Source of the DNA: a virus
Direction: 5' to 3' (one strand)
Length of the DNA: 61,455 nucleotides
IMG/VR virus record: IMGVR_UViG_3300032893_000045
Coordinates: 1-61,455 of that record
Made by a program: the position numbers and the translations under genes. The notes under the pieces are model-generated. The model was not told the origin of the DNA. It searched no databases and saw only the letters and a program-made list of their open reading frames with translations. Shown here one piece after another: positions 1,999 to 52,721 of this stretch (within the stretch, counting starts at the first letter, position 1; the number at the start of each line of letters is the position of its first letter).

Positions 1999-4900
1999 GT
2001 GCCGCGGACGCGGTTCGACGACGAGATGGACCGGATCCTGGCACGGCTGCCTCCTTTGGCACCCGGCGCGGCCGCGCCCGACTACAGCGCGGACCCCGAC
2101 GCGCTCGCGTCCCTGGCCGCCGTCTCCGCCCAGACCCCCGAGGAGGAGGAGAAGAAGCGGGGGATCCTGTCCACGCTCGGAGCGATCATGAACGCTCCGA
2201 AGCGAGCCGTGGGCGTGGCCGCGAACTACTACGCAGGCGGCCCGCTACAGCAGCGAGTTCTCACTGGCGAGGAGCCAGTCCCGGCCGGAACCCTCCTGGC
2301 CGAGGGGCTCGCGGGGCGCCCAGACGTGAGCCAGTCTCCGGCCGAGCAGCACGCCCGGGGCGTCGGCCGGGCCGTGGGCGAGTTCGTCGGCGACATGGCG
2401 ACGGACCCGGTGAACGCAGGGCTGATGCTCGCGGGCCTACCGGGCGGCCCAGTAGGCTCCGCGGCGAAATGGCTCTTCCGCGCCATGATGGCGAAGGCGA
2501 CAGCCGAAGGCGTCGCTCGGACCTACGAGAACTACCGACGCGAAGGATGGACACCGACCACGTCTGAGGAGGGCGCCAAGGCAGCGCTCTCGGGCCTCAC
2601 GCTCGGAAGCACCTTCCTGGGAGGGGCGCCGCGCGAGCCGCTCAACGCGAATCCGGAAGGCTGGACAGCGGGAGGCGAGAACGCCGAGACGGGCGTCATG
2701 CCGCTGCGGCCGCCCGTGGTCTACGCGCGGGAGATCCCCCGCGAGCCCGGCGCGCCCCGCGCCCCGCGTCTACCTCCGGCGCCGCCCGACTACGGCGCCT
2801 ACCCCGCCCAGATCGCCCCCGGCTACCCCCTGCCGCCCGGTCCGGAGGCTGGCGTCGGCGAGGCTGGCGCCGAGGTCCCTCCGCCGCCGCGGCCCCCCGT
2901 GGCGCCGCCGGGCCCTCCGGCGCTCCCCGAGGTCAACATCCCCAAGACGCCCGACCAGATGTCGGACGAGGCCCTCCTCTCGACGCTGTCGGGCATCGAG
3001 GGGGCGATCCGGACGTCGATCCAGCAGAACGACCTGACCCGGGCGATGGACCTGCGGCGCCATCGCAGCGCCCTTCAGGACCTCTACCGCGCCAGGCGGT
3101 ACGGGCCGGACTACGTCGTCGGCCGCGCCGGGGACCTCCTCCAGCTTCGGGACCAACTCCAGCAGGAGCGGGCCGGCGGCGTCGACATGAACCGGGCCCT
3201 CCAGATCGAGGAATCCCTCCAGATCATCGAGGCCGAGCTCCAGCACGCCTCGCTCGGAGCCACCGCGGCGGCCGCCCCGGGCGCAGCGACCGGGCCAGCC
3301 GCGCCTCCGCGCCCTCCGGTGATGCCGGAGACGGCCCCCGTGACCGCTCCAGGCCCGGCGCCGTCCAGGATGCCCCACGTTGCGACGCAGGAGCCTCCGG
3401 CGACCGCCGAGCCGCTGACCCCCCTCGAGGGCGTGCAGGCGGGCAAGCTGGCAACGCGGCCGGGCATCCAGGAACTCCTCGAGCGCGCACAGGCCGAGGG
3501 CGCCGGCCAGCCGGAGGCGCCGCGGCCGGAGGAGGCCAAGGTTCTCACGGGAGGCGAAGCGGCTGGCGCGGGCGCGCGAGCCGGGGCCCAGGAGCCACCG
3601 CCGCCCGTCGAGGTGCTGCCGCCGGCTCCCGGGCCCATGCCCCCACCCGGCGCCCCGGTGGTGGACGTCACGCCGCCCGCGCCTCGCCTCCGGATACCGG
3701 CACCGACGCCGGCCCCAGCCCCCCGCCCGGAACCGGCACCGCCTGCCTCCGTCCCTGTTCCTACCGCTGCGGCCGGTCCGCAGCCGGCTCCCACCGCGCC
3801 ACCCCTTCCTTCGCCGGCACCCCGGGCGGGGCCTGCCGAAGAGGAAGCGCCGAGCATACCAGGCCGGGCGCTCACGCCCAAGGAGTCGACGCGGAAGCCG
3901 CAGGCGGCCCCGAAAGTCGGCCAGTTCGACCTCGACGGCGAGCCGTACTGGTCGAACAACCACATGATCGTCCACGGCCGAGCCCGCGGCGCCTCGAAGC
4001 TCGCGGTTGCGCCGGAGGCGATCGTCAAGGCCACGGCCGCGGACGTCCCGGCCCAGCCGATCGGCTTCGAGGAGGGCAGTCCGGCGATCACGCAACTCCA
4101 TGGCAAGACGACGCCGGAGCGCGTCCCGGCGGTCTGGCTCCAGGGCGCGATCCGGCCAGGCCAGCCGGTCTCCGTCCCGGTCGATCCGGACTACTTCCAC
4201 ACCGTCCGGGCGGCCGGCGAGGGCGAATGGCGCGTGGACCGCAAGGGGACGCGGGCGACGCTCTACGGGCCCGAGGGTCGGCTGGTCGGCTCGATCGCCC
4301 GGCTCCACGCCGAGCGGACGCCGCCCGAGGATCTCCAGCCGCTTCCTGCCCGCGGCGCGCCCACCGCGGACGTCGCCGCCGTGGCCCAGCACCAGGCCGC
4401 GCTCGAGGACGCCAAGGACAAGGCCGGCAAGGTCCGGTGGGCGAAGGTCCCCGACCCACCCCGAGACGAGGAGGGCAACCGCATCCTGCCGGGGCAGGAG
4501 GACTGGACTCCTGCGCGCCGGGCGCTCGTCCATGCCACCGCCGACGACGCCGTGCGGCAGGTGGCCGAGGAGGAGCGGCTCGAGCCGACCGGCCCTCGCG
4601 ACATCGTGGATGAGAACGGCCGGGCGCGCCGGGAGGGCCAGCGGGTCGGCCGGGCGAACCGGGACATGGGGCGCGGCTGGGAGGGCGAGCGGGAGACCTT
4701 CGCCGTCGGCTCGAAGAAGCCCGGGACGGCCGTCGAGGATGTGAACCTCGGCCCGAAGGAGATGGTCGCCGCCCTGAAGCGGGACAAGGGCAACCCGGAG
4801 GAGACGGAGATCCACCAGGCCGTCGACAAGTGGAACACCGAGTTCGCCTACCGCCATGCGTCTGAAATCCAGACTGACCCGCTGTGGTCCCGGGGATACC

Positions 4901-9622: not shown

Positions 9623-12153
9623 TGGCGGTCCAGATCCAGCTTCGCCGGGGCACCGCGGCAGCCTGGACGGCCGCGAATCCGACCCTCGCGCAGGGCGAGT
9701 TCGGCGTCGAGACCGACACCCTCAAGGGCAAGCTCGGCGACGGCATCACGGCCTGGAACGCCCTGCCGTACACGCTCGCCGCGATCAGCGTGACGTCGAC
9801 GAAGGTGTCGAACGTCCTCTCGGTGGCGAACGCCGCCAGCAACGCGGCGTCAGTCGTCAGCCAGGCGCTCTCGGTAGAGGCGGCAGCCAGGGCCTCGAAG
9901 GACGACTCGCTCTCGAACGCGGTCTCGAACGCGATGAGCGTCGCCTCTGCCGCGTCGGCGGCCGCGGCCGCGCTGAGCGTCGCCCTCGCGGGACTGTCCG
10001 CCAAAAGCGCGGGCGGCACGTCTGTTAAGGGGCTCCAGAGCATCTTCAACGCTCTATCGAACCGAATCTCCGCCATCGCTGGAGGCTCCGTCACCTCGAC
10101 GAAAGTCTCGAACGTCCAGTCGAACCTTCAGAGCGCGATCAACGTGGTCTCGAACGCTCTCTCGAACGAGATCAGCGACAGGAAGAGCGCGCTGAACGTA
10201 GTCAGCAACGCGGTCTCGATCGTCTCGACGGCGGCCTCGAACGCGCTCTCCGTCGCAAACGCGGCGTCGAACGCGGCCTCGATCGTCAGCAACGCTCTCT
10301 CGAACGAGATCAGCAATCGCAACTCCGCCGTGAACGTGGTGAGCAACGCAGCGTCGAACGCCACCTCGATCGCGAACGCGGTCTCGAACGCGCTGAGCGC
10401 CCTGTCCGCCGGCCAGCTTTCCATCTTCTCGCAGCAGCTTTCGGTCCACAGCCAGAATCTCTCGGTCCTCTCGAACGCTCTGTCGAACGAGATCAGCAAT
10501 CGGCAGTCCGCCGACAACGCGCTCTCGAATGTCATCTCAGCGCTGTCCGCCGGCCAGCTTTCGATTCACAGCCAGGCCATCTCCGTCCTGAGCCAGCAGG
10601 TCTCGGTGATCTCGGCGCTCCTCGTCGGGGTGTCGGCGAGGAACTCCTCCGGAGCCTCCGTCAAAGGGCTCCAGTCGGCGATCAACGCGCTCTCGAACGA
10701 CATCTCGAACGTCCTCTCGGTCGCGAACGCGGCCTCGAACGCGGCGAGCATCGTCTCGACCGCCGCTTCCAACGCGCTGTCGGTAGCGAATGCCGCGAGC
10801 AACGCGGCCAGCGTCGTCTCCAATGCGCTCTCCAACGAGATCAGCAACCGCACGAGTGCCGTGAACGTCGTCTCGAACGCGGCGTCGAACGCGCTGAGCC
10901 TGGCGAACGCGGCCAGCGCGGCAGCCGCCGCCCTGAGCACGCTGCTCGCTGGCGTCTCGGTCAAGTCAGTCGGCGGGACCTCGGTGAAGGGGCTCCAGTC
11001 GATCCTCAACGCCCTGAGCAACCGCATCTCCGCGAGCGGAGGCGCTCCGACGAACGTCTCGGTGAAGTCGGTCGGCGGGGCGTCTGTCCAGGGCTGGCAG
11101 TCCGTCGTCGATGCCTTGAGCAATCGGATCTCGGCGGTGGTCGTGGGTGGAGGCGGGAGCGTCACCAGCACGAAGATCTCGAACCTCCAGTCAGCGCTCT
11201 CGGCCGCCGACACCACCATCAGCAACGCTGCCTCGAACGCGATGTCTGCCGCGATGGCGGCCTCGAACGCCGCCAGCATCGTGTCGAACGCGCTGAGCAA
11301 CGAAATCAGCAACAGGATCTCGGCCGACAACGCGCTCTCGACGGCGATCTCGAACGTCCTCTCGGCCCACAACGCGCTCTCCCAGGCGATGTCCGTCCTG
11401 AGTGCGGGCCAGTGGTCGGCGCTCTCACAGGCGGTCTCGGTCCTCTCGCAGCAGGTCTCGGTTCTCAGCCAGCAGATGTCCGTCACGACGGCGGCTCTGT
11501 CGAACCTGACCTCGGCCCACAACGCGCTGTCGAACGCCGTCTCTGCCCTCTCAGCGGGACAGCTTTCGATCCACAGCCAGGCGATCAGCGTCCTCTCCCA
11601 GCAGGTCTCGGTCCTGTCTCAGCAGGTCAGCGTCCTGAGCCAGCAAGCCTCCGTCGTCTCGGCCGGATTCGGGACCGTCCAGATGCGCAAGGTGACCGGC
11701 GCCCAGGTCATCTCGGCCGCGAGCTTCGCGAACGTCAGCGGTATGTCGCTGTCGGTCCAGTCCTCGAGCTACTACCAGATCGAGGGCCAAGTCCTCTTCA
11801 CGGTCTCCGTCGTCACCGGCACCGCGTTCGGTTTCACATTCCCGGCCGGAGTCTCCGTCGGCGCGATCACCTTCGAGTGCCTGACGAGCGTCATGGCCGG
11901 CGCGCCAGTCAACCTCGTCTCGACGAACTACGCCGTCAACAACATCACGGCGCCCTCGATGTCCACCGTTGCGACGGCCACGCTCTCGGTGCTCGGGGGC
12001 GCCTCGGCCGCCCAGTACACCGCCTATATCTACGGCCTCATCAGCCCAGGCGCGACGGCCGGGACGGTCCAGCTTCAGGCGAAGCAGTCGGCTACGGGCG
12101 GCGGCGTACAAATCCTTGCGGGATCCTTCCTGCGAGCGTATAAGATCGGGTAA
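9622..12153 (+). CDS. Tail fibre with Mtd-like N-terminus, long Ser-Asn-Ala-Leu coiled coil and beta-rich tip, 843 aa
   Basis: Residues 1-50 (IQLRRGTAAAW, then G-E-F-G-V-E-T-D-T and K-L-G-D-G) match the N-terminal domain of the BPP-1 major tropism determinant and related fibres, which anchors the trimer. Residues about 60-680 are a degenerate heptad array dominated by S-N-A-L-S, N-E-I-S-N-R and Q-Q-V-S-V-L-S blocks, a very long trimeric coiled coil. The last 150 residues are Val/Thr/Ser/Gly-rich beta structure ending S-F-L-R-A-Y-K-I-G, a likely receptor-binding sandwich. The start has GGAGGG upstream. Confidence 0.9.
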   Translation: MAVQIQLRRGTAAAWTAANPTLAQGEFGVETDTLKGKLGDGITAWNALPYTLAAISVTSTKVSNVLSVANAASNAASVVSQALSVEAAARASKDDSLSNAVSNAMSVASAASAAAAALSVALAGLSAKSAGGTSVKGLQSIFNALSNRISAIAGGSVTSTKVSNVQSNLQSAINVVSNALSNEISDRKSALNVVSNAVSIVSTAASNALSVANAASNAASIVSNALSNEISNRNSAVNVVSNAASNATSIANAVSNALSALSAGQLSIFSQQLSVHSQNLSVLSNALSNEISNRQSADNALSNVISALSAGQLSIHSQAISVLSQQVSVISALLVGVSARNSSGASVKGLQSAINALSNDISNVLSVANAASNAASIVSTAASNALSVANAASNAASVVSNALSNEISNRTSAVNVVSNAASNALSLANAASAAAAALSTLLAGVSVKSVGGTSVKGLQSILNALSNRISASGGAPTNVSVKSVGGASVQGWQSVVDALSNRISAVVVGGGGSVTSTKISNLQSALSAADTTISNAASNAMSAAMAASNAASIVSNALSNEISNRISADNALSTAISNVLSAHNALSQAMSVLSAGQWSALSQAVSVLSQQVSVLSQQMSVTTAALSNLTSAHNALSNAVSALSAGQLSIHSQAISVLSQQVSVLSQQVSVLSQQASVVSAGFGTVQMRKVTGAQVISAASFANVSGMSLSVQSSSYYQIEGQVLFTVSVVTGTAFGFTFPAGVSVGAITFECLTSVMAGAPVNLVSTNYAVNNITAPSMSTVATATLSVLGGASAAQYTAYIYGLISPGATAGTVQLQAKQSATGGGVQILAGSFLRAYKIG

Positions 12154-12362: not shown

Positions 12363-13714
12363 AGAGCCTCGAGTTCGGAACCAAGCACGAGACGCACTAC
12401 GCCGTACCGCTGTGGCTCCGAGACGAGCAGATCCGGCTGGCCTCGCGCCGTCCGATCCGGCGCCTCGAGACGTACACGGGTCCGCTGCGGACGGAGCCGA
12501 TCGCCATCGTCTGCTTCGGGCCGAGCCTCAACGACACCTGGGAGGAGATCCGCAACTTCAAGTGGATCATCACCTGCTCCGGCTCTCACCGCTTCCTGCT
12601 GGACCGCGGCATCGTCCCGACGTGGCACGTCGAGGTCGACCCGCGCGAGCACAAGGTCGCCCTCCTGGGCGAGCCTGACCCGCGGGTCGAGTACCTCGTC
12701 GCGTCGACGTGCCATCCGGCCTACTTCGACCACCTGAAGGACGGGCCCAACGTCGTCCTCTGGCACATCTTCCAGAACGAGCCGGACGCCTACCGCGTCC
12801 TGCCTCGAGGCGAGTGGTACGTCCTGGGCGGGACGAACGTCGGGCTGCGGGCGATGGCGCTGGCTCGGCTCTTCGGCTTCCGGAACCAGGTCATCTTCGG
12901 GATGGACGGCTGCCAGCGGGACGAGGTCCACAAGCACGCGACCGCCCATCCGCTCCAGGACGGCACGCCGTTCTCGACCGTGGAGTACGACGGCGTCGAG
13001 TACAAGACGACGGCGGCCATGCTCGAGAGCGCCAAGGGCACGTTCTACGAGCTCGACACCGACCTCCACGACGTCACGGCCGAGTTCCGCGGCGAGGGCC
13101 TCGTGCAGGCGATGGCTCGCAATTACGTGCGGAAGGAGCGCGATCCCGGCCGCAGCTACTTCCTGGCGATCCAGCCGCCCGAGCTGATCTCCGCCGAGTA
13201 CCGCGAGCTCAACGCGCGGCTCCATCGGGAGAGTCTCGCCTACGGCGTCGGCGGCGGCCGGTACGCCGGGCGCGTCGAGGAGATGGCGCGCGGCATGAAA
13301 ACGACGTCCGTCCTCGACTACGGCTGCGGCAAGGGCTACCTCGGCCGCGCGATGCCGTGGCCGATCTGGGAATACGATCCTGCGGTTCCGGGCAAAGACG
13401 ATCCGCCGCGGCCAGCCGACCTCGTCGTCTGCCTGGACGTCCTCGAGCACATCGAGCCGGACAAGATCCTGTTCGTCCTCGAGGACCTCGCCCGGGTGAC
13501 GCGCCAGGTCGGCTACTTCGTCGTCCACACGGGCCCGTCGAAGAAGAAGCTCGCCGACGGCCGCAACGCCCACCTGATCCAGCAGCCGCTGAAGTGGTGG
13601 TCGAAGCGGATCGGGATCTTCTTCCAGGTCGCCAAGGTCTTCAAGCAGGGACCGCTGCTTCACTACGTCGTCGGTCCAAAGCCGCACGCGAAAGCGGCTG
13701 CGAGGGTGGCATGA
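12359..13714 (+). CDS. MptE-like (DUF115) domain fused to a class I SAM methyltransferase, 451 aa
   Basis: GTG at 12359 overlaps the previous stop. Residues about 45-230 carry I-A-I-V-C-F-G-P-S-L and later G-G-T-N-V-G, the signature of the DUF115/6-hydroxymethylpterin pyrophosphokinase MptE-like family, which also includes motility-accessory-factor glycosyltransferases. Residues about 315-430 form a methyltransferase: V-L-D-Y-G-C-G-K-G-Y (SAM loop) and C-L-D-V-L-E-H-I. The fusion suggests sugar or small-molecule transfer plus methylation, perhaps decorating the adjacent fibre or the host surface. The exact substrate cannot be read from the sequence. Confidence 0.85.
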   Translation: MKSLEFGTKHETHYAVPLWLRDEQIRLASRRPIRRLETYTGPLRTEPIAIVCFGPSLNDTWEEIRNFKWIITCSGSHRFLLDRGIVPTWHVEVDPREHKVALLGEPDPRVEYLVASTCHPAYFDHLKDGPNVVLWHIFQNEPDAYRVLPRGEWYVLGGTNVGLRAMALARLFGFRNQVIFGMDGCQRDEVHKHATAHPLQDGTPFSTVEYDGVEYKTTAAMLESAKGTFYELDTDLHDVTAEFRGEGLVQAMARNYVRKERDPGRSYFLAIQPPELISAEYRELNARLHRESLAYGVGGGRYAGRVEEMARGMKTTSVLDYGCGKGYLGRAMPWPIWEYDPAVPGKDDPPRPADLVVCLDVLEHIEPDKILFVLEDLARVTRQVGYFVVHTGPSKKKLADGRNAHLIQQPLKWWSKRIGIFFQVAKVFKQGPLLHYVVGPKPHAKAAARVA

Positions 13715-13812
13715 AGCAACCACGAAAGGCTTGGCTCCGCATGGCGCTGTGGGATCTGTCTCGCGGTCAAGTCCGCTTCGCCTTGATCGCACTTAAGCGA
13801 GCTTTCCGATGA
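13711..13812 (+). CDS. 33-aa basic peptide between the methyltransferase fusion and the radical SAM enzyme
   Basis: ATG at 13711 overlaps the stop of the methyltransferase gene and its own stop overlaps the ATG of the radical SAM gene (ATGA at both junctions), a strong sign of real, coupled translation. The peptide has nine Lys/Arg, two Trp (W8, W14) and no Cys, Asp at 15 only, and could form an amphipathic helix. The position is that of a precursor peptide for a radical SAM/SPASM maturase, but a simple spacer or regulatory peptide is equally possible. Confidence 0.65.
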   Translation: MKQPRKAWLRMALWDLSRGQVRFALIALKRAFR

Positions 13813-14768
13813 GCATCACGAACCGGATCGACCGGATCACCCTGATCCCGGCCGAACGGCTCGCCACCGTGATCCCGCCTCCGCGCTCCGTCAAGATTGA
13901 GCTGACGGGGAGGTGCAACTACCGCTGCTCGTTCTGCGCCCTGGCGGCGCGGGAGTCCCAGCCGACGAAGGACATGGACCTCGACTTCTTCAAGCGGATC
14001 ACACGGGAGATGCGCGAGGCCGGCGTCGAGGAGATCGGCGTCTTCTTCATCGGCGAGTCGTTCCTCAGCCCGAAACTGCTCGTCGCGGCCGTCGAGTACC
14101 TGAAGCTCGAGCTCGGGATGCCCTACGTGTTCCTGACCTCGCAGGCCAGCCCGGCGACTCCGGCCAACGTCGAAGCCGTGATGCGCGCCGGCCTCGATTC
14201 CCTGAAGTGGTCGGTCAACTCTGCCGACGACCTCCAGTTCGAGGAGATCATGAAGGCGCCCGCGCATCTCCGGAAGAAGGCACTCGAAAACATCCGCTGG
14301 GCATGGCACATCCGCCAAGGCAAGGGCTACAAGACCAAGCTCTACGCCTCGTCGATCCAGTACGACGGCGAGCAGCAGGCGAAGATGGAGGCGGCGCTCC
14401 GGGTCGCGGTGCTGCCCTACGTGGACGAGCACTACTGGCTGCCGCTCTACTCGATGGGCAGCTTTGCAACCGCCCGCGAGGAGGCGCTCGGCTACCGTCC
14501 CGGCGCCGGCAATCAGGGCAGGATCGGCGCGCTACGCGAACCGCTACCGTGCTGGTCGGTCTTCACGGAGGGCCACGTCACTAGCGCCGGCCATCTGTCC
14601 GCGTGCTGCTTCGACGCCACGGACAACTGGTCGATGGCCGACCTTCACGAGACGCCCTTCGCGGAGGCGTGGAACTCCGAGGCGTTCCGCAGGCTCCGCC
14701 AGGCGCACCTCGCCCGGGACGTCAGCGGCACGGCCTGCGAGCATTGCATCGCTTACCAGGGGACCTAA
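13809..14768 (+). CDS. Radical SAM/SPASM enzyme, 319 aa
   Basis: C36-N-Y-R-C40-S-F-C43 is the CxxxCxxC motif that holds the 4Fe-4S cluster cleaving S-adenosylmethionine, preceded by K-I-E-L-T-G-R. The C-terminal 80 residues are a SPASM domain: P-C-W, then A-G-H-L-S-A-C-C, an A-W-N-S-E-A-F-R-R-L-R helix and C-E-H-C at the end, which bind extra Fe-S clusters. SPASM enzymes modify peptides or proteins, and some relatives act on sugars or lipids. It ends the late plus-strand block and overlaps by four bases the convergent gene at 14765. Confidence 0.88.
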   Translation: MSITNRIDRITLIPAERLATVIPPPRSVKIELTGRCNYRCSFCALAARESQPTKDMDLDFFKRITREMREAGVEEIGVFFIGESFLSPKLLVAAVEYLKLELGMPYVFLTSQASPATPANVEAVMRAGLDSLKWSVNSADDLQFEEIMKAPAHLRKKALENIRWAWHIRQGKGYKTKLYASSIQYDGEQQAKMEAALRVAVLPYVDEHYWLPLYSMGSFATAREEALGYRPGAGNQGRIGALREPLPCWSVFTEGHVTSAGHLSACCFDATDNWSMADLHETPFAEAWNSEAFRRLRQAHLARDVSGTACEHCIAYQGT

Positions 14769-15246: not shown

Positions 15247-15512
15247 CGCTGCTCCTTCCCCTGGCCATGATTCCTTTCCTTCGCCGGCTGCAGTTCGCTC
15301 TCCAGCCATGGGTCGTCTTCGGCCAGTTCGTTATCGACCCTCTTCCGCAGCAGCTTCACCATGTCACGTACCTTCTCGGCGCTGTCCTCGTAACCCGAAG
15401 CCGCCTCGAATCCATCCGACTGGCGGAAGATCGACCAGTAGAGCAACGGATAGCCCGCCATGCAGCGCTCACGATGCGCTTCGATCTCATAGCCGCGGTA
15501 GGAGACCTTCAC
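15243..15512 (-). CDS. Hypothetical protein, 89 aa
   Basis: GTG at 15512 with the same AAGGAGCAG ribosome-site block that precedes the gene at 15246. The protein begins M-K-V-S-Y-R-G-Y-E-I-E-A-H and has a small alpha/beta look with a C-terminal charged tail. Short proteins of this kind are frequent in phage early accessory regions. No function can be assigned. Confidence 0.75.
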   Translation of the reverse strand: MKVSYRGYEIEAHRERCMAGYPLLYWSIFRQSDGFEAASGYEDSAEKVRDMVKLLRKRVDNELAEDDPWLESELQPAKERNHGQGKEQR

Positions 15513-17545
15513 GGCTGCTCCTTCCCCTGGGCGAGCTTGGCCCGCTCCTCGCGGACGATTGGCTGGGCGAGCGCAGCCAGCTCACGGAGGATTTCGGTCG
15601 TGCGGAACAACAACTCCCGCTTCGGGTCGTCGCAGTTGATCGCGTGCTCCAATTGAGCCGCCGAGCTAGCCTGCCTATCGATAGCGTCGCGTAACTTCCG
15701 CAGCGCCTCCTCGGCGGCGGCCAGCCGGGACTCAGTGCTGTCGATCTTCACCAGCGCAGCGTCGATGTCAGGCACGCCAAGCCGCTTTAGGACTCGGCTG
15801 CGCGCCCCGTCGAACAGCGGCTTCTGCCCGTTCAGCAGCGCGTCTCGCTCCGCCTCCGCTGCGCTGGCGCGGGCCTCGGCGGCTCGTGTAGCCAAGACAA
15901 TAGCGTTGTGTACCTGATCGTCTAGGAATGCCGCCCGTACTTCGGGACCAAACTGCTCCTCTAGATCGGCACGCAGCGACATGATCGCGTCGCCGTTGCT
16001 CTCCTCCAGTTTTAGCTGCGCTCGCAGCCGCTCGATCTCCTCGTCCTTCGCGGCGAGGCGGGCTTGTAGCTCGCGCTTGTCCTTGCCGCACTCACCGAGC
16101 CACTGGAGCGCCTGCTTCAACATCTCGCCGGCTGTCTTCTCGTCAGGCTCGTCCTGCGGGGCATGCACGCCCTCCCACGCCGCGAGCGCTTCATCCGAAC
16201 AGTCCGCCTCCCCCTGCGCCGGGGCCGGCTCGGCAGGATGTGTCAGCAGGTGATCGACGCGCTCCGAGAACTGCGGCGGTTTCCGTGGGCCTAGCAACTC
16301 AGCAGCGGTCAGCGGCTCCGGCTGCGGCTCAGCCTCCGGGGCAGGGGTGGGCGGCGGCACCGTTGCGGCAAGATCGCGGAGATCCTTCGCCAGAAACGGG
16401 TAGGACAACTCGCAAGCGTCGGCATAGGCTAGCAATGCCGGGCGCGAGAATGGATCGTGGTCGGTGTCGAGCACGAAGTAGTAGCAGTGCTCGTGCTTCC
16501 GCCCGCGACCGGACGAGCCGTCAGTGCGGATCACCTCGTACTTCCCGTACAGCCCCCGCTTCTCGTCCTCGGCTGGTGGGTACGGCGGCCCAGCCTCCGG
16601 GGCAGGGATGGTCGCGTCGATCTGCTCCGGCGGCATCTCGGGGTCCATCTCGCGGGAAGCTTCCAGGGCTGCGTTGGCGCGGGCCTCGGCGGCTCGCTCT
16701 CGCTTGCTGGCAGCGTGCCAGTGGTCACGCGCCCAGTCGAAGGCACCATGCCACCTGGCGATCTCCTCGTCCTTCGCGGCGAGGCGGGCCTGTAGTTGCA
16801 TCATCTTGCCTAGCAATTGATCGCGCTGCTTAACCATTGCAGCAAGACAAACCTCCAAGGGCGCCCCTTCTGCCTCCCCCTGCGCCGGGGCCTGTCTCGT
16901 CGCGGTGCCGTCCTTCCACTTCCCGGCTGTGGAGACGCCTCCGAGCAGCGGCGTGATCTCCTGCGCCGGGGCCTGGCACCGTGGATCAGCCACAAGAGCG
17001 GAACCTGCAGCGCCGCACTTCGCGCACTTCAACTCCCCCTGCGCCGGGGCCGGCTCGGCAGGCTGGTGTTGAACTGACTCCAAAACGCCAGTAACTGCTT
17101 GTTTTTCAGTGCGCTGAGCCGGTGTTGAAGCCGGCTCGGCAGGCGGCAGAAGCTCCCCAGCATGGCACCAGCAGTCGCAGCCCTCGCAATCGTCTACGCA
17201 GTTGTCGCCATGTACCGGCTCCTCCGGCTGCGGCCCAGCCTCCGGGGCAGGGGTGGGATTGAGGAACCGGAGCAGTTCGCCCGGAGCGTGGTCATGGCCG
17301 GGGTCATCGCACACCACGGCGCTGCCGGTGGGCGCGAGGGCGGCCCGAGCGTGATCAGCGATGGGGCAGTTCGGCGTGCCCATTGCCGCACATGCCTCAT
17401 CGTGGTGCTCCAGCAGTCCCTCGGCTAGCGCCCGCATCCTCCCCGCCTGCTCCAGCTCGGAGATCGCGGCGTCGATTGCCTTCACCACCCGTAGGCTGCC
17501 AACTGCTCGCAGCTCCCGAAGCGTCTCCATCTGCTCGCTCGTCAT
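15509..17545 (-). CDS. Mosaic accessory protein with repeated Pro-Ala linkers and coiled coils (Ea22-like organisation), 678 aa
   Basis: The ATG follows GGAGGTGTAGCCG. The protein is built of blocks: an N-terminal helical part, Cys/His-rich pieces (C-E-G-C-D-C-W-C-H; C-A-K-C-G), a Y-G-K-Y-E-V-I-R-T-D-G module, and two copies of L-Q-A-R-L-A-A-K-D-E-E-I at the head of coiled coils. The blocks are separated by at least three copies of A-E-P-A-P-A-Q-G-E and several P-A-P-E-A-G. This patchwork resembles lambdoid Ea22-type proteins that gain and lose modules by recombination. Its role is unknown. Confidence 0.78.
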   Translation of the reverse strand: MTSEQMETLRELRAVGSLRVVKAIDAAISELEQAGRMRALAEGLLEHHDEACAAMGTPNCPIADHARAALAPTGSAVVCDDPGHDHAPGELLRFLNPTPAPEAGPQPEEPVHGDNCVDDCEGCDCWCHAGELLPPAEPASTPAQRTEKQAVTGVLESVQHQPAEPAPAQGELKCAKCGAAGSALVADPRCQAPAQEITPLLGGVSTAGKWKDGTATRQAPAQGEAEGAPLEVCLAAMVKQRDQLLGKMMQLQARLAAKDEEIARWHGAFDWARDHWHAASKRERAAEARANAALEASREMDPEMPPEQIDATIPAPEAGPPYPPAEDEKRGLYGKYEVIRTDGSSGRGRKHEHCYYFVLDTDHDPFSRPALLAYADACELSYPFLAKDLRDLAATVPPPTPAPEAEPQPEPLTAAELLGPRKPPQFSERVDHLLTHPAEPAPAQGEADCSDEALAAWEGVHAPQDEPDEKTAGEMLKQALQWLGECGKDKRELQARLAAKDEEIERLRAQLKLEESNGDAIMSLRADLEEQFGPEVRAAFLDDQVHNAIVLATRAAEARASAAEAERDALLNGQKPLFDGARSRVLKRLGVPDIDAALVKIDSTESRLAAAEEALRKLRDAIDRQASSAAQLEHAINCDDPKRELLFRTTEILRELAALAQPIVREERAKLAQGKEQP

Positions 17546-33431: not shown

Positions 33432-34501
33432 CAGCGCAGGTCCTTTCCAGGCCAGCCGCAGAGCTCGCAGCCTCCGAGCTCGTTGAGCCGGGTGCCGCAG
33501 CGCTCGCATTTCGTCTTGGCGGCCGGCTTCTCCGCGGCTCGGGCGGCCGGCGTGCCGGGCGGCGGCACGCCGAGAGCCTTCTCAGCGGCGGCGATCACAC
33601 GCTCTCTCGCGGGCCCCGGAGCAGGCGTAGCAGCCGGAGGTGGTAGCTGCTGCGGGGCGTCCTGCTCCGGGGCCCCCTCGGTTGTGGAGGGCGACGGTAG
33701 AGCTTCGTCGACGGACTGGGAGATCGCGGCCTCGAGGGCGGGATCGACCCTCGGGGCGCGCTCGTTCTGCTGGATCTGCTGGAGCAGCGGATCCGGGCCC
33801 TGGACTACGGGCTTCGCCTCGACCGGGACGGAGCCGCGGCGCTCCTGCTCGGCCGCGTCGGCGTCCTCGGCGATCCCTTCGGTCGGGATGCCCAGCGTCA
33901 CGTCGGAGAATCCCTCGTCCAGCACCCGACCGCGCGCCCGCGAGATGAGCATGTCCTTCAGGTAGAGGTCGTAGGTCGAGTCGTACTCCCCTCCGGAGCC
34001 GCTGCGCCGCTTCTCGAGGAGCTTCGCCGTCTTGGCGTCCTCCCAGGAGAACTCTTTGACGATGGCGCTAGGCTGGCCGACGCGCTTCGCCATGACGCAG
34101 CCCTTGAGCGTCTCGCCGCTGCCCTCGGTCCACTCCTTGTAGTCGGCCAGGAGCCCGCTCTTCCGGACGAGCCCGAGCGCGCCCTTCGTCTGGAGCGCCA
34201 CGCGCCCGGCCTTCGTCAGGTAGAGGCTGCGCCAGGCGGCCCACGGCTTGAGCCCGAGCTCGAGTCCCGCGGCCATCAGGGCGAACGCCTGAGCCCCGTT
34301 CTTGATCTGCTGGGGCAGGAGGTTGCTCCGGTAGCACGCCTCGGCGTAGGCCACGGCTTCCTTGACCGTCGGGAAGGTGACGCCGCGCTCGCTGATCGTG
34401 AGGCCCTGCGCGGTGTTGACGCGCTCCTGAACCTTCGCTTCGGCCTTCGCGAGTTCGTCCTGCGGGATGCCGACCGCCGTGATCGCCTGCTCCTCAGACA
34501 C
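33431..34501 (-). CDS. recT: RecT-like single-strand annealing protein with C-terminal zinc ribbon, 356 aa
   Basis: GTG start. Residues 40-210 fit the RecT group: A-Y-A-E-A-C-Y-R-S-N-L-L-P, A-F-A-L-M-A-A-G-L-E-L-G-L-K-P, G-R-V-A-L-Q-T-K-G, and L-K-D-M-L-I-S-R-A-R-G-R-V-L near 190. After a Pro/Gln-rich linker the end carries C-E-R-C and C-E-L-C-G, a zinc ribbon not usual in RecT. With the RecE-like nuclease (35377) it forms a two-part recombination system. Confidence 0.82.
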   Translation of the reverse strand: MSEEQAITAVGIPQDELAKAEAKVQERVNTAQGLTISERGVTFPTVKEAVAYAEACYRSNLLPQQIKNGAQAFALMAAGLELGLKPWAAWRSLYLTKAGRVALQTKGALGLVRKSGLLADYKEWTEGSGETLKGCVMAKRVGQPSAIVKEFSWEDAKTAKLLEKRRSGSGGEYDSTYDLYLKDMLISRARGRVLDEGFSDVTLGIPTEGIAEDADAAEQERRGSVPVEAKPVVQGPDPLLQQIQQNERAPRVDPALEAAISQSVDEALPSPSTTEGAPEQDAPQQLPPPAATPAPGPARERVIAAAEKALGVPPPGTPAARAAEKPAAKTKCERCGTRLNELGGCELCGWPGKDLR

Positions 34502-46455: not shown

Positions 46456-46776
46456 ATGGAGAGCATCTGGACGCCGCTGTGGGACAAGGTCATCGTGGAG
46501 CGCGAGGCCCCCGACGAGAAGCTCTCGAAGGAGGCCGACATCGTCGTTGCCGACGCCCACAAGCGCCGGAAGAACCGGGGGATCGTGCTCTCGACCGGCC
46601 CCGGCCGTCTGACGTCCAGCGGGGCGGTGGTGCCGCTGTACGTGAAGGTCGGGATGCAGGTGCTCTTCGGCGAGCATTCGGGCATCGACCTCGAGGAGAA
46701 GGACCACGTCATGCTGCGCGAGGACGAGATCCTCGCGTGCCGCGAGGTGGCCGCGGAGGAAGTCGCCGCGGCGTAG
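46456..46776 (+). CDS. GroES-like cochaperonin, 106 aa
   Basis: ATG follows GGAGGAAACG. The Cpn10 fold pattern is clear: P-L-W-D-K-V-I-V-E-R at the front, a loop region about residues 22-38 in place of the mobile loop, R-G-I-V-L-S-T-G-P-G-R, V-K-V-G-M-Q-V-L-F-G and D-H-V-M-L-R-E-D-E-I-L-A. Phage GroES relatives, such as T4 gp31, refit host GroEL to fold large capsid proteins. The position before the capsid genes fits that role. Confidence 0.88.
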   Translation: MESIWTPLWDKVIVEREAPDEKLSKEADIVVADAHKRRKNRGIVLSTGPGRLTSSGAVVPLYVKVGMQVLFGEHSGIDLEEKDHVMLREDEILACREVAAEEVAAA

Positions 46777-48865: not shown

Positions 48866-49405
48866 ATGCGACGAGTGCTCTTCGTCATCCTCGCCCTCCT
48901 GTCCACGCCCGCTTGGGCCCAGGTCTACACGTATCCATCGACAGGTGGATCGGGCGGCCTGGACCACTGGCCGAAGCCCCTCAATAAGCTCCAAGTCACG
49001 CTCTCGGCCGCCCAGATGGATAGCCTCTACTCCTCCCCCATCACTCTGCTGGCGGGTAAGTCGGGATACTTCTACGACGTCTTCCAGATGGTGATCGTCA
49101 AGGAAGACACGGTCGCCTTCTCCTCGGTGGGGCAGAATCTCACGCTCTCTTGGAATGCGAGTCCTGCTGTTTCCATCTTCACCTGGGCCGTTACGAGTTG
49201 GCTCACTTCGACGAACGTCGGCAGCGCTCGTTGGGGGCGCTTGGGCCAGCCCCAGTGGCAGATCGACGAGGCTGCGGCGAACCTTGGCGGGAAAGGACTC
49301 GTGCTCTCGCTTCCCACCGGAGACATGACGGGCGGAGGCCCCTGCACGGTCTACATCTGGTACTGGCAGGTTCCGGACACGAGCGCGGGACTGGCTGGGC
49401 TCTAG
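48866..49405 (+). CDS. Protein with Sec signal peptide, 179 aa
   Basis: ATG at 48866 after AGGAGGGAAAGCG. Residues 1-18 are a signal ending P-A-W-A before Gln, almost the same site as in 47664 and 52803. The mature part is rich in Ser, Thr and Trp with one Cys, beta-like. It overlaps the convergent gene at 49402 by four bases. Unknown function. Confidence 0.75.
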   Translation: MRRVLFVILALLSTPAWAQVYTYPSTGGSGGLDHWPKPLNKLQVTLSAAQMDSLYSSPITLLAGKSGYFYDVFQMVIVKEDTVAFSSVGQNLTLSWNASPAVSIFTWAVTSWLTSTNVGSARWGRLGQPQWQIDEAAANLGGKGLVLSLPTGDMTGGGPCTVYIWYWQVPDTSAGLAGL

Positions 49406-49725
49406 CGCACGCGCAGGTTCCGGACGGCGATCGCCCCGCCGACGACTCCGAAGCTCGCCGCCAGCCATCCGGCCGTCCGCCCATGCCCGCGCCTCCGCAG
49501 CGCGTGGCACCCGTAACCCACGGCGCCGGCCACCGCCAGCTTCGCGAACGGAGAGCCCAGCACGGGATTCGCTTCCCGGCAGCCCGCGCAGCGGTTGAGC
49601 ACGTAGTACGTGCTCCCCAGATCCGCCGCCTGACCTCCCAGGATCAGCGTCCAGTTGAGCCCCTCGCCCGCTACGGCGGGCGCGGCCAGAGCCGTCAGAA
49701 GCAGCACGGTCAAGATCCTCTTCAT
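49402..49725 (-). CDS. Exported or membrane protein, DUF5658-like, reversed within the late block, 107 aa
   Basis: The only minus-strand gene in the late block. Residues 1-19 are a signal-like segment ending A-V-A before Gly. N-W-T-L-I-L-G-G-Q-A-A-D-L-G-S-T-Y-Y, then C-R-E-A-N-P-V-L-G, recalls small four-helix membrane proteins of the DUF5658 type. Hydrophobic stretches follow at about 61-76 and 85-101. With its own upstream TTGAC element it could be expressed separately, for instance during lysogeny. Confidence 0.73.
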   Translation of the reverse strand: MKRILTVLLLTALAAPAVAGEGLNWTLILGGQAADLGSTYYVLNRCAGCREANPVLGSPFAKLAVAGAVGYGCHALRRRGHGRTAGWLAASFGVVGGAIAVRNLRVR

Positions 49726-49738
49726 GCGCGGTAGCTTC

Positions 49739-49753
49739 TCGCACGCATGTCAT
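49739..49753 (-). promoter_or_regulatory. ATGACA-TGCGTGCGA motif upstream of 49725
   Basis: Minus-strand ATGACATGCGTGCGA shares its last 14 bases with the element at 17977-17991, and both are followed about 13 bases on by an ATGAAG start. This spacing leaves no room for a standard -10 box, so an operator is as likely as a promoter. Confidence 0.5.
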
Positions 49754-49757
49754 CCGG

Positions 49758-49778
49758 GTCAAGCGGAAAACGCTTGAC
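49758..49778. promoter_or_regulatory. Perfect palindrome between divergent units
   Basis: GTCAAGCG, five-base spacer GAAAA, CGCTTGAC. Each arm contains TTGAC, so it supplies a -35-like box to each strand. It lies between the reversed gene and the structured region, so it may be an operator shared by both. Confidence 0.6.
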
Positions 49779-49803
49779 AGGGGTCCGAGGACGGGCGCAG
49801 GAT
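49774..49803 (+). promoter_or_regulatory. Putative promoter of the structured region
   Basis: TTGACA (49774-49779), 18-base spacer, CAGGAT (49798-49803). The -10 box is weak (A2, A5 and T6 match). The expected start near 49810 is where the first hairpin begins. Confidence 0.5.
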
Positions 49804-49809
49804 GGCCGG

Positions 49810-50250
49810 CGTTCGTCGGCCGGACAGACGAACGGCCCGGGAGACCGGAGGATCAACCCGGGCCGGAGTGCCTGCTGGGGTCACAGCAGGGCGTGGGAGG
49901 ACATTTTCCCACACCAAGCTGGACCCTGCAAGGAGAGAACGGGGACCTCTTTGGGTCTGGCTGCGACAACTCGGCGAGCAGAAACCGTCCAGGGGCTCCG
50001 CGCCCAGCAGCACGCGGACCTCCTGCGCGCGAGGCAAGAGAGGGAGACCCCCCAGCCCGCGCACCGCGAAACCCTCCCTATACCGGAAGTTCGGAGCCTT
50101 CTTTGCCTTGAAGGCGCTGAGCCGGGGACTCGTGCCGGCGCTCGTGCGTGGGCTCGGGGCTGGGCTGGGCTCGGGGCTGACAGGAACCGTCTCACCGACT
50201 GAACTTCCGGGTAGGGCTGGGAGGAGCGGGGGGCGGGGGGTCGGTGTGCC
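49810..50250 (+). ncRNA. Candidate large structured non-coding RNA
   Basis: No credible gene in about 440 bases, but successive stems: CGTTCGTC/GACGAACG (49810/49827); CGGCCCGGG/CCCGGGCCG (49833/49857); CCTGCTG/CAGCAGG (49871/49884); GTGGGA/TCCCAC (49893/49907); AGCTGGACCC/GGGTCTGGCT with two G-U pairs (49917/49953); TCCGCG/CGCGGA (49997/50013); CCCAGCCC/GGGCTGGG (50051/50214) enclosing CCGGAAGTTC/GAACTTCCGG (50083/50201), which encloses GCCTTC/GAAGGC (50096/50110) and GCCGG/CCGGC (50121/50135). A 13-base repeat GGGCTCGGGGCTG lies at 50150 and 50167. A promoter precedes it and another follows. Some pairing will be chance at this GC content. Confidence 0.5.
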
Positions 50251-50295
50251 AAGGAGACAACGTATAGCGCAGGAGGCTGCTTCGACCCCAATTCC

Positions 50296-50324
50296 TTGAC
50301 ACGCTACCGAAGGTAACGCATCAT
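50296..50324 (+). promoter_or_regulatory. Promoter in front of scaffold and capsid genes
   Basis: TTGACA (50296-50301), 17-base spacer with the near-palindrome CTACCGAAGGTAAC, CATCAT (50319-50324). Predicted start near 50331 leaves a 38-base leader to the scaffold ATG. Confidence 0.65.
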
Positions 50325-50368
50325 GCAGCCGTCCGAAGCGGGCGCCGCCCGCCCGCAGGAGGCGCACG

Positions 50369-51430
50369 ATGTCAGACGCACCAGTGGCCGACGCGGTCCC
50401 AGCCGAACCGACGGAACCCGTCGAGCCCACCGAGCCGCCCTCGGGAGAAGGAGAACCGGAGCCGGCGCCGCCCGCCGAGCCTGGCGAAGACGAGCCTCAA
50501 GACCTGAAGGACCTCCGAGCGAAGTACCCCGGGGAAGACGACGCGAAGCTGTTGCGGCGCCTGGCCCCCTCGTACTGGGAGCAGACGAGAGAAATCTCCC
50601 GACTCCACAAGGAACGCAGCGACTCGACGGTCGAGGAGCTACGCAACCGCGTGAAGGAGCTCGAGGCTCGAACGGCGCCGCCCGCCGACAAGAACGAGCC
50701 ACCCCCTCCAGAGATCCAGAGACTCGAGCAGGAGATCACGAGCCTCACGCAGGAACGCGACGGCCTGTACCAGCAGCAGGCGGCCGCCCTCCAGCAACTC
50801 ACCGAGACGAACGTCAAGATCGAGCGGCTGAAGGGGCAGGTCGAGTCGCCGCACACGCCCGAGGACGAGAAGCCGCACATCCAGCGGAGCATCGACGCCC
50901 TCGAAGCGCGATACGCGGCCATCTACGCGCAATGGCAGAGCTCCGGCCTCGACGCGAAGCGGACCCAGCGCGAACTGAGCCATCTCGTGAACGAACGAGA
51001 CTGGACGAAGCAGGTCGTCACCGAGCGCGCGGCCAGGCAAAAGCAGGAGCAGGAGCAGGCCCAGACCGACCTCAAGGCGGTCGTGGCGGACGTAGACGCG
51101 CAGATCGCAAAGACCGTGACGGACCTGAAATTCGGGGACTTGGCGGACGACGCCAAGGAGTACATCTTCACCAAGGTCACGAACGACTTCCGGAAGCTCG
51201 GGAACACCCCGGTCGGCGACATCGACGTGGAGGGCCTCGTCAGGCAACACGCCGAGAAGTACGCCAAGATCAGCCGCCTCGAAGCCCGTCGCGACTTCGC
51301 CAAGAGAAGCGAGAACAAGGCTGCGGTCTCCGGCCGCCCAGGCGCGCCGGCCCCGCGCTCCGCTCCCCCGAAGCCGCCACTAGACCAGATGGCGAGGGCG
51401 AGAAAGGCCCTCGAAGCGAAGGGGTGGTAG
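50369..51430 (+). CDS. Scaffolding protein, 353 aa
   Basis: ATG after GGAGGCGCACG. The first 50 residues are acidic and Pro-rich, residues 70-245 are heptad coiled coil (V-E-E-L-R-N-R-V-K-E-L-E and more), and the end is basic with L-D-Q-M-A-R-A-R-K-A-L-E-A-K-G-W. This layout, just before the capsid gene, is that of podovirus scaffolds that guide shell assembly through a basic C-terminal helix. Confidence 0.85.
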   Translation: MSDAPVADAVPAEPTEPVEPTEPPSGEGEPEPAPPAEPGEDEPQDLKDLRAKYPGEDDAKLLRRLAPSYWEQTREISRLHKERSDSTVEELRNRVKELEARTAPPADKNEPPPPEIQRLEQEITSLTQERDGLYQQQAAALQQLTETNVKIERLKGQVESPHTPEDEKPHIQRSIDALEARYAAIYAQWQSSGLDAKRTQRELSHLVNERDWTKQVVTERAARQKQEQEQAQTDLKAVVADVDAQIAKTVTDLKFGDLADDAKEYIFTKVTNDFRKLGNTPVGDIDVEGLVRQHAEKYAKISRLEARRDFAKRSENKAAVSGRPGAPAPRSAPPKPPLDQMARARKALEAKGW

Positions 51431-51449: not shown

Positions 51450-52721
51450 ATGACCACGGGCGCCATCGAGGACATCAGCGCCGAGTTGAAGACGCAGTAC
51501 CCGCCGGGGACGTTCGAGGAGCCGGTCAACAAGAACGCCCCGTACCGCAAGAGCCTCCAGAACGTGAACCTCGTCGTGCGCGAGGGCTACACCGCCGTGG
51601 TGCCCCTCGGCGTGGCGAGCGCCTGGAACGTCGCCTCGCCGGCAGACGCCGGCCCGGCCCAGGCCCCGATCGACCCGACCCGCGTGCAGGGCACGGTGAA
51701 CCCGGAGCTCTTCGTCGGTTCGTTCCAGATCGGCGTCAAGACGAAGAACATGGCGACCTCGGGGAAGAGCACGTTCAACCCCGGGGGCATCCTGCCCGAC
51801 CGCGTCGAGTCGACCGTGGCGGACCTCGGCAAGTACATCGAGGAGGTCTACGTCGGCTCCAACCGCGGCCGCCTCGCGATCGTCGCGACCAACCCCGGCG
51901 CGAACCAGTTCACCTGCGACGTGCCGATGCTCGATCTGCTGCTCCACAAGAACAAGCGGATCATGGCCTTCGACGCGCTCCAGTCCGGCAACTACCGGGG
52001 CTCGAGCGCGGCCGACGGACGGAAGATCACGGTCCTCGACCGCTCGACCCACACCGTCACCTACGACGGTGCCGACATGGGCGCGGTGGCCCCGGGCGAC
52101 TCGATCTTCATCCAGGGCACCTACGGCCGGACCCACTGGTCCCTGCGGGACATCGTGGACGACGGCACGCTCTGCCTGACGATCTACGGGCAGTCGCGGA
52201 ACACCTACCCCGAGCTCAAGGCGTTCGTCCAGAACGGCTCCGCGGGCTACCGGGACCTCAACGAGGCCCTGATCCTGGACATCATCGCGAACATCGCTCG
52301 CGAGACCGGCCAGAAGGTCACGCGGGCCCTCGCCAACGACGGCCAGGGCCGCAAGTACGTGGAGTTCATCCAGGCCGAGCGCCGCTACATGGGCCCGACC
52401 GGCTCCGACGTCAAGTACACGATCGGCTACAAGGACGGCTCGCTGAAGATCCTGGCGCCGGGCGTGGACGTCGACCTCGAGGCGGCGCCGGACGCGGAGC
52501 CGGGCGCGATCTTCTTCCTGACCTGGTCCACCTTCGGCCGCTACGAAGGCATGTCGATGGACTGGATCGACGACGACGCGCTCCTGCACCTGATCCCCGG
52601 CACCTCCGTGCACTCGATGGGCTTCCTGGCCTACGTGGGCTCGATCGAGAACCAGATCAACACGATGCCCCGAGCCAACGGCAAGCTCGGCAGCCTCAAC
52701 GACCCGATCCTGGGCACGTAG
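51450..52721 (+). CDS. Major capsid protein, P22-like coat, 423 aa
   Basis: ATG 19 bases after the scaffold stop with AAGGA upstream. The length, the position after scaffold, a Y-T-A-V-V-P-L-G front, the D-R-V-E-S-T-V-A-D-L helix and beta-rich later half fit HK97-fold coat proteins of P22-like phages. No frameshift or cleavage delta domain is visible. It would be the most abundant virion protein. Confidence 0.87.
   Translation: MTTGAIEDISAELKTQYPPGTFEEPVNKNAPYRKSLQNVNLVVREGYTAVVPLGVASAWNVASPADAGPAQAPIDPTRVQGTVNPELFVGSFQIGVKTKNMATSGKSTFNPGGILPDRVESTVADLGKYIEEVYVGSNRGRLAIVATNPGANQFTCDVPMLDLLLHKNKRIMAFDALQSGNYRGSSAADGRKITVLDRSTHTVTYDGADMGAVAPGDSIFIQGTYGRTHWSLRDIVDDGTLCLTIYGQSRNTYPELKAFVQNGSAGYRDLNEALILDIIANIARETGQKVTRALANDGQGRKYVEFIQAERRYMGPTGSDVKYTIGYKDGSLKILAPGVDVDLEAAPDAEPGAIFFLTWSTFGRYEGMSMDWIDDDALLHLIPGTSVHSMGFLAYVGSIENQINTMPRANGKLGSLNDPILGT

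Follow-up and report, generated by a model that had tools for sequence, protein, structure and literature searches.

A candidate structured non-coding RNA of about 440 nt ahead of the scaffold-like and capsid genes of a phage

Just ahead of its scaffold-like gene, the sequence of an uncultured phage analysed here (the window: the whole 61,455-nucleotide stretch, IMG/VR record IMGVR_UViG_3300032893_000045) probably gives rise, from its plus strand, to a structured non-coding RNA of about 440 nt that has not been described before. This RNA would be made from its own promoter as a separate unit and is likely free and stable. Its 5′ domain would be variable and its 3′ core conserved, with GACCCCCC/GGGGGGTC closing the core and a pseudoknot tying it. 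The RNA class is rare.

The candidate lies in a 643-nt gap (49726-50368) bounded by a minus-strand ORF (49402-49725) and by the scaffold ORF:

49810-50250, plus strand: structured non-coding RNA, ends estimated, with a fold well below the genome background and no coding signal
50369-51430, plus strand: scaffold-like gene, 353 aa, with homologues at the same place in relatives
51450-52721, plus strand: major capsid protein gene (phrog_14242 major head protein, E 1.7e-18)

The scaffold-like gene gave no family match and is named by its position. A preliminary description of this DNA had claimed a gene-free stretch of about 640 bases here, and that stretch is real. The ORFs that can be drawn in it (151, 165, 223 and 136 aa) all lack the strong third-position GC bias of this genome, codon-position GC in the 165-aa ORF being 0.66/0.71/0.67 as against about 0.7/0.45/0.9 in real genes, and none matched anything.

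One homologous gap was found ahead of a related scaffold gene, a check that had been proposed beforehand. It belongs to L011, a distant relative whose capsid protein is 62% identical to that of the window, and it spans 507 nt (4347-4853) at the matching place. The two gaps share, in the same order, the blocks CAAGAGAGG, GACCCCCC, CACCGCGA, ACCGGAAG, GCCTTGAAGGC, GGGCTCG, GGGCTGGGCTCGG, CTTCCGGG and GGGGGG..GTGTG. We divide the RNA as follows:

49810-50034, plus strand: 5′ domain with several hairpins (49833/49857, 49871/49884, 49917/49953)
50035-50250, plus strand: conserved 3′ core, aligned to L011:4564-4756; covariance model R1 finds both
50046-50053/50235-50242, plus strand: closing helix GACCCCCC/GGGGGGTC, 14 bp in L011
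50054-50064/50144-50154, plus strand: pseudoknot, 11 bp in the window
50076-50081/50211-50216, continuing into 50083-50094/50199-50210, plus strand: inner helix, with CCGGAAG/CTTCCGG invariant

Alignment of the 3′ core (216 nt in the window, 193 nt in L011) beats 500 of 500 shuffles, and at the level of sequence the two cores are homologous. A middle block aligns at borderline significance (p = 0.04). The 5′ domain has no alignable similarity to L011 (p = 0.7) and sequence alignment of its hairpins yielded no credible consensus; homology of the 5′ halves is only suggested, by position and promoter.

The similarity between the window and L011 is of the nucleotide rather than the codon kind. In both genomes the block CAAGAGAGGNNGACCCCCC does read KRGRPP in an open frame, and two of the spacers differ in length by multiples of three, as they might if ORF 49802-50299 were a short gene for an AT-hook-like KRGRPP protein. 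Substitutions are nevertheless spread evenly over codon positions (6/4/6), a pair of frames broken by stops scores higher than the open pair (112 vs 68), and the codon-position GC of the ORF is flat. In addition, a conserved block falls outside the reading frame, and in L011 the frame has already stopped before the conserved 3′ blocks are reached. The check for a conserved protein reading frame thus went against coding, and we consider the KRGRPP gene barely plausible.

The computed fold of the region is stable. The 441-nt segment from 49810 has a fold z of -6.7 on the plus strand and -3.66 on the minus strand, whereas the plus-strand background has a mean z of -0.02 (sd 1.13, minimum -3.14), the background being about 60 windows per strand from the first 42 kb of the genome. 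A longer stretch of 521 nt gave z = -5.1, with none of 100 shuffles equally good; windows of 200 nt were too short for the signal to show. Shuffled sequences, whose equal folding energy had been named as grounds for rejecting the RNA, did not equal the real one. Taken separately, the 3′ core gave plus-strand z values of -3.46 in the window and -3.33 in L011 (minus strand, -2.55 and -2.18), and the 5′ domain gave -3.24 and -1.95.

Folded separately, the two 3′ cores adopt the same plan: the GACCCCCC/GGGGGGTC closing stem, short helices, and CCGGAAG/CTTCCGG around a multi-branched loop. CAAGAGAGG is invariant and unpaired at the 5′ edge of the core. In the outer part of the inner helix, three of the four aligned pairs differ between the window and L011 by changes on both sides. 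All seven aligned pairs of the pseudoknot are kept in L011 (AGCCCGCGCAC/GTGCGTGGGCT in the window against GTCCAGG/CCTGGGC), with one two-sided change and two one-sided changes via G-U; the pseudoknot competes with some of the pairs proposed by RNAalifold. With the window and L011 as input, in a sequence-made alignment from which about 20 variable-loop bases were removed to help the register, RNAalifold predicted 45 pairs, of which none was broken and five were changed on both sides. When pairing partners were shifted by 1-3 columns as a control, no two-sided change remained. The covariation shuffle control, which is weak with two sequences, gave 36/500, and because the class has only two members covariation is not statistically provable.

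All of the stems listed in the preliminary description are present, including those at 49833-49841/49857-49865 (9 bp) and 49917-49926/49953-49962 (10 bp), the 50083/50201 stem, which at 12 bp (50083-50094/50199-50210) is longer than claimed, and the pseudoknot, which is conserved in L011 as well. The stem at 50051-50058/50214-50221 can form in the window, but only five of its eight pairs are kept in L011, and the conserved closing stem, with which it competes, replaces it. Fold energy, the L011 homologue, changes that keep pairing and the lack of coding signal together support the proposed reading as a large structured non-coding RNA.

Given that the region is intergenic, carries strong inverted repeats and folds better than shuffles on both strands, it could in principle act as DNA, for example as a replication origin or as a packaging or recombination site. 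The plus strand folds clearly better, however, and in both sequences the pseudoknot includes G-U pairs, which are impossible on the other strand. The fold also has nested, long-range pairing, and a promoter-like site precedes it. We regard a DNA-level element as highly improbable, and favour the plus strand for an RNA because of its better fold energy and the G-U pairs.

Promoter-like sites stand on either side of the candidate RNA:

49774-49803, plus strand: TTGACA-18-CAGGAT ahead of the RNA, 9 of 12 consensus bases; a consensus match only
50296-50324, plus strand: TTGACA-17-CATCAT ahead of the scaffold gene, 10 of 12 consensus bases

Of the two promoters claimed earlier, the one before the RNA has a counterpart in L011 at 4343 (TTGACA-18-TAGTCT), although the -10 of the 49774 site (CAGGAT) is weak; the one after the RNA is a better match to consensus than the first. 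The scaffold promoter, a TTGACA site in both genomes, lies about 72 nt before the scaffold start in the window and 81 nt before it in L011, and TTGACG-type sites occur 62-74 nt before the scaffold start in five relatives without the RNA. From the estimated 3′ end of the RNA it is about 45 nt to the scaffold promoter and about 120 nt to the start codon. Most simply, the scaffold promoter would be ancestral and the RNA a separate unit placed upstream of it.

The main rival is a cis-acting 5′ leader, in which the transcript from 49774 would continue into the scaffold gene, its fold adjusting mRNA stability or the expression of scaffold and capsid. The RNA is on the same strand as the scaffold gene and directly upstream of it in both genomes, and no intrinsic terminator was found between the two in the window, so read-through into the scaffold mRNA is possible. 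Against a leader, both genomes have a separate and better promoter downstream of the RNA and ahead of the scaffold gene, with sites also in the five RNA-lacking relatives; the RNA stops short of both the start codon and that promoter; and relatives express the same genes without it. We judge a leader unlikely, though to be taken seriously, and prefer the separate RNA unit.

Two small repeats were noted ahead of the scaffold gene. A short inverted repeat of the type GTTACC-NNN-GGTAAC recurs in several relatives downstream of the scaffold promoter and before the gene itself (50304-50317 in the window, about 4807-4822 in L011, and shortly before the scaffold gene in L005, L053 and L055), and is perhaps an operator or an mRNA hairpin. 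A small hairpin of the type CGCGG-TCGC-CCGCG, ending at the scaffold ribosome-binding site, is found just before the scaffold start in most relatives (L001, L002, L004-L007, L010, L050, L051 and L053).

We evaluated the distribution of the RNA among relatives of the phage. The capsid protein search returned 19 IMG/VR loci; the capsid profile had no match in GTDB genomes, and among isolated phages there was only one match, very distant. When covariance model R1 was run on the whole records of the 19 capsid relatives, only the window and L011 scored. By the same model the RNA is absent at 14 other loci whose pre-scaffold region is covered (L001, L002, L004-L010, L049-L051, L053 and L055, some of them near-copies of each other), and these have related scaffold and capsid genes and, where covered, a related portal. 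In most of them a gene some 100 codons long sits immediately before the scaffold gene, separated from it by just a short gap; the one in L001 was confirmed as Cpn10. The capsid tree groups the window and L011 weakly (59/18), and a single gain of the RNA in their lineage is a possible history. Since the RNA is absent from 14 related loci, it is accessory, which argues against an essential packaging role.

Wider searches added no further member. DNA patterns of the conserved motifs in viral and genome contigs, followed by nhmmer, gave among the matches listed only L011 and L045 as real, and these are one contig; most matches to the CAAGAGAGGNNGACCCC pattern were unrelated sequence. No homologue was returned by blastn against phage and plasmid records. 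R1 found none in about 500 bacterial genomes, a search with strict pre-filters and no positive control that shows little.

An RNA beside head genes brings to mind the pRNA of phi29, a phage RNA tied to head function. The candidate lies within the cluster of head genes, beside those for scaffold and capsid, and a comparable part in head assembly or DNA packaging could be imagined; this genomic position is, however, all that the two share. The present RNA is larger and has no Rfam match, the phage has a terminase of the ordinary large-subunit type, and the 14 RNA-lacking loci show that the phage group as a whole does not carry the RNA with its head and packaging genes. We therefore hold a role like that of pRNA to be very unlikely. 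Also unlikely is a new class of phage RNA with a physical part in head assembly, be it in scaffolding, the procapsid or packaging, or one that makes up an RNA particle of its own, in a phage unrelated to phi29.

Comparison with known families gave no assignment. In cmscan against all 4227 Rfam families, at gathering thresholds and up to E = 10, the region returned only chance microRNA and sRNA matches, in line with the earlier remark that no known signature is visible. OLE, a bacterial class of large ornate structured RNA, resembles the candidate in being large and ornate, and differs in not being a phage class; here, too, there is no Rfam match. GOLLD and ROOL are large phage RNAs of unknown function, often near tRNA islands, which form RNA nanocages; GOLLD has a conserved 3′ region and a more variable 5′ region, and ROOL is a pseudoknotted RNA of phages and prophages (PMC12286853). 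The division into a conserved 3′ and a variable 5′ part recalls GOLLD, but GOLLD RNAs often exceed 800 nt and commonly, though not universally, lie near tRNA islands, whereas this RNA is about 440 nt long, lies in a head-gene cluster and matches no GOLLD covariance model. ROOL is likewise large and pseudoknotted; it measures about 660 nt in the solved example, is found near tRNA islands, and its covariance model was not matched here. ARAGORN found no tRNA in the 61 kb window. The likeness to GOLLD and ROOL drawn in the preliminary description accordingly stands in kind and fails as membership (no Rfam match at E ≤ 10, no tRNA, smaller size); without a Rfam family match, the RNA is neither of the two. 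What the two members do have is a long non-coding sequence, a stable fold and a shared pseudoknot, the marks of a large structured phage RNA, and within that kind this is a new class, with no Rfam relation in sequence or structure model.

These data allow us to propose a model. The gap RNA would be transcribed from its own promoter, which precedes the one used by the scaffold and capsid genes, and would act free and stable during infection, together with a protein or with other copies of the RNA; its function would be accessory, not one at the core of the head. We infer that it is most likely a free RNA or a ribonucleoprotein produced in the course of infection. Few classes of large structured phage RNA are known, and this new one occupies an unusual place in a head-gene cluster. 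The conserved 3′ core is compact, and its size of about 215 nt would suit direct probing, native gels and cryo-EM; the patchy distribution of the RNA in otherwise co-linear relatives provides natural pairs with and without the RNA for comparing function.

Further observations concern the rest of the window. The phage carries a Cpn10 (GroES-like) gene at 46456-46776, several kb before the scaffold gene, unlike that of L001 (L001:4478-4768), which is directly upstream. By codon-position GC, two more stretches have no gene-like ORF, a long one at 12363-13808 and one of about 1 kb at 33510-34493; the best-folding background windows are those at 11905 (z = -3.1) and 13305 (z = -2.8). A radical SAM/SPASM protein gene lies near a gene with a sulfatase-modifying-factor-like part (13809-14768 and 15509-17545), which is unusual for a phage.
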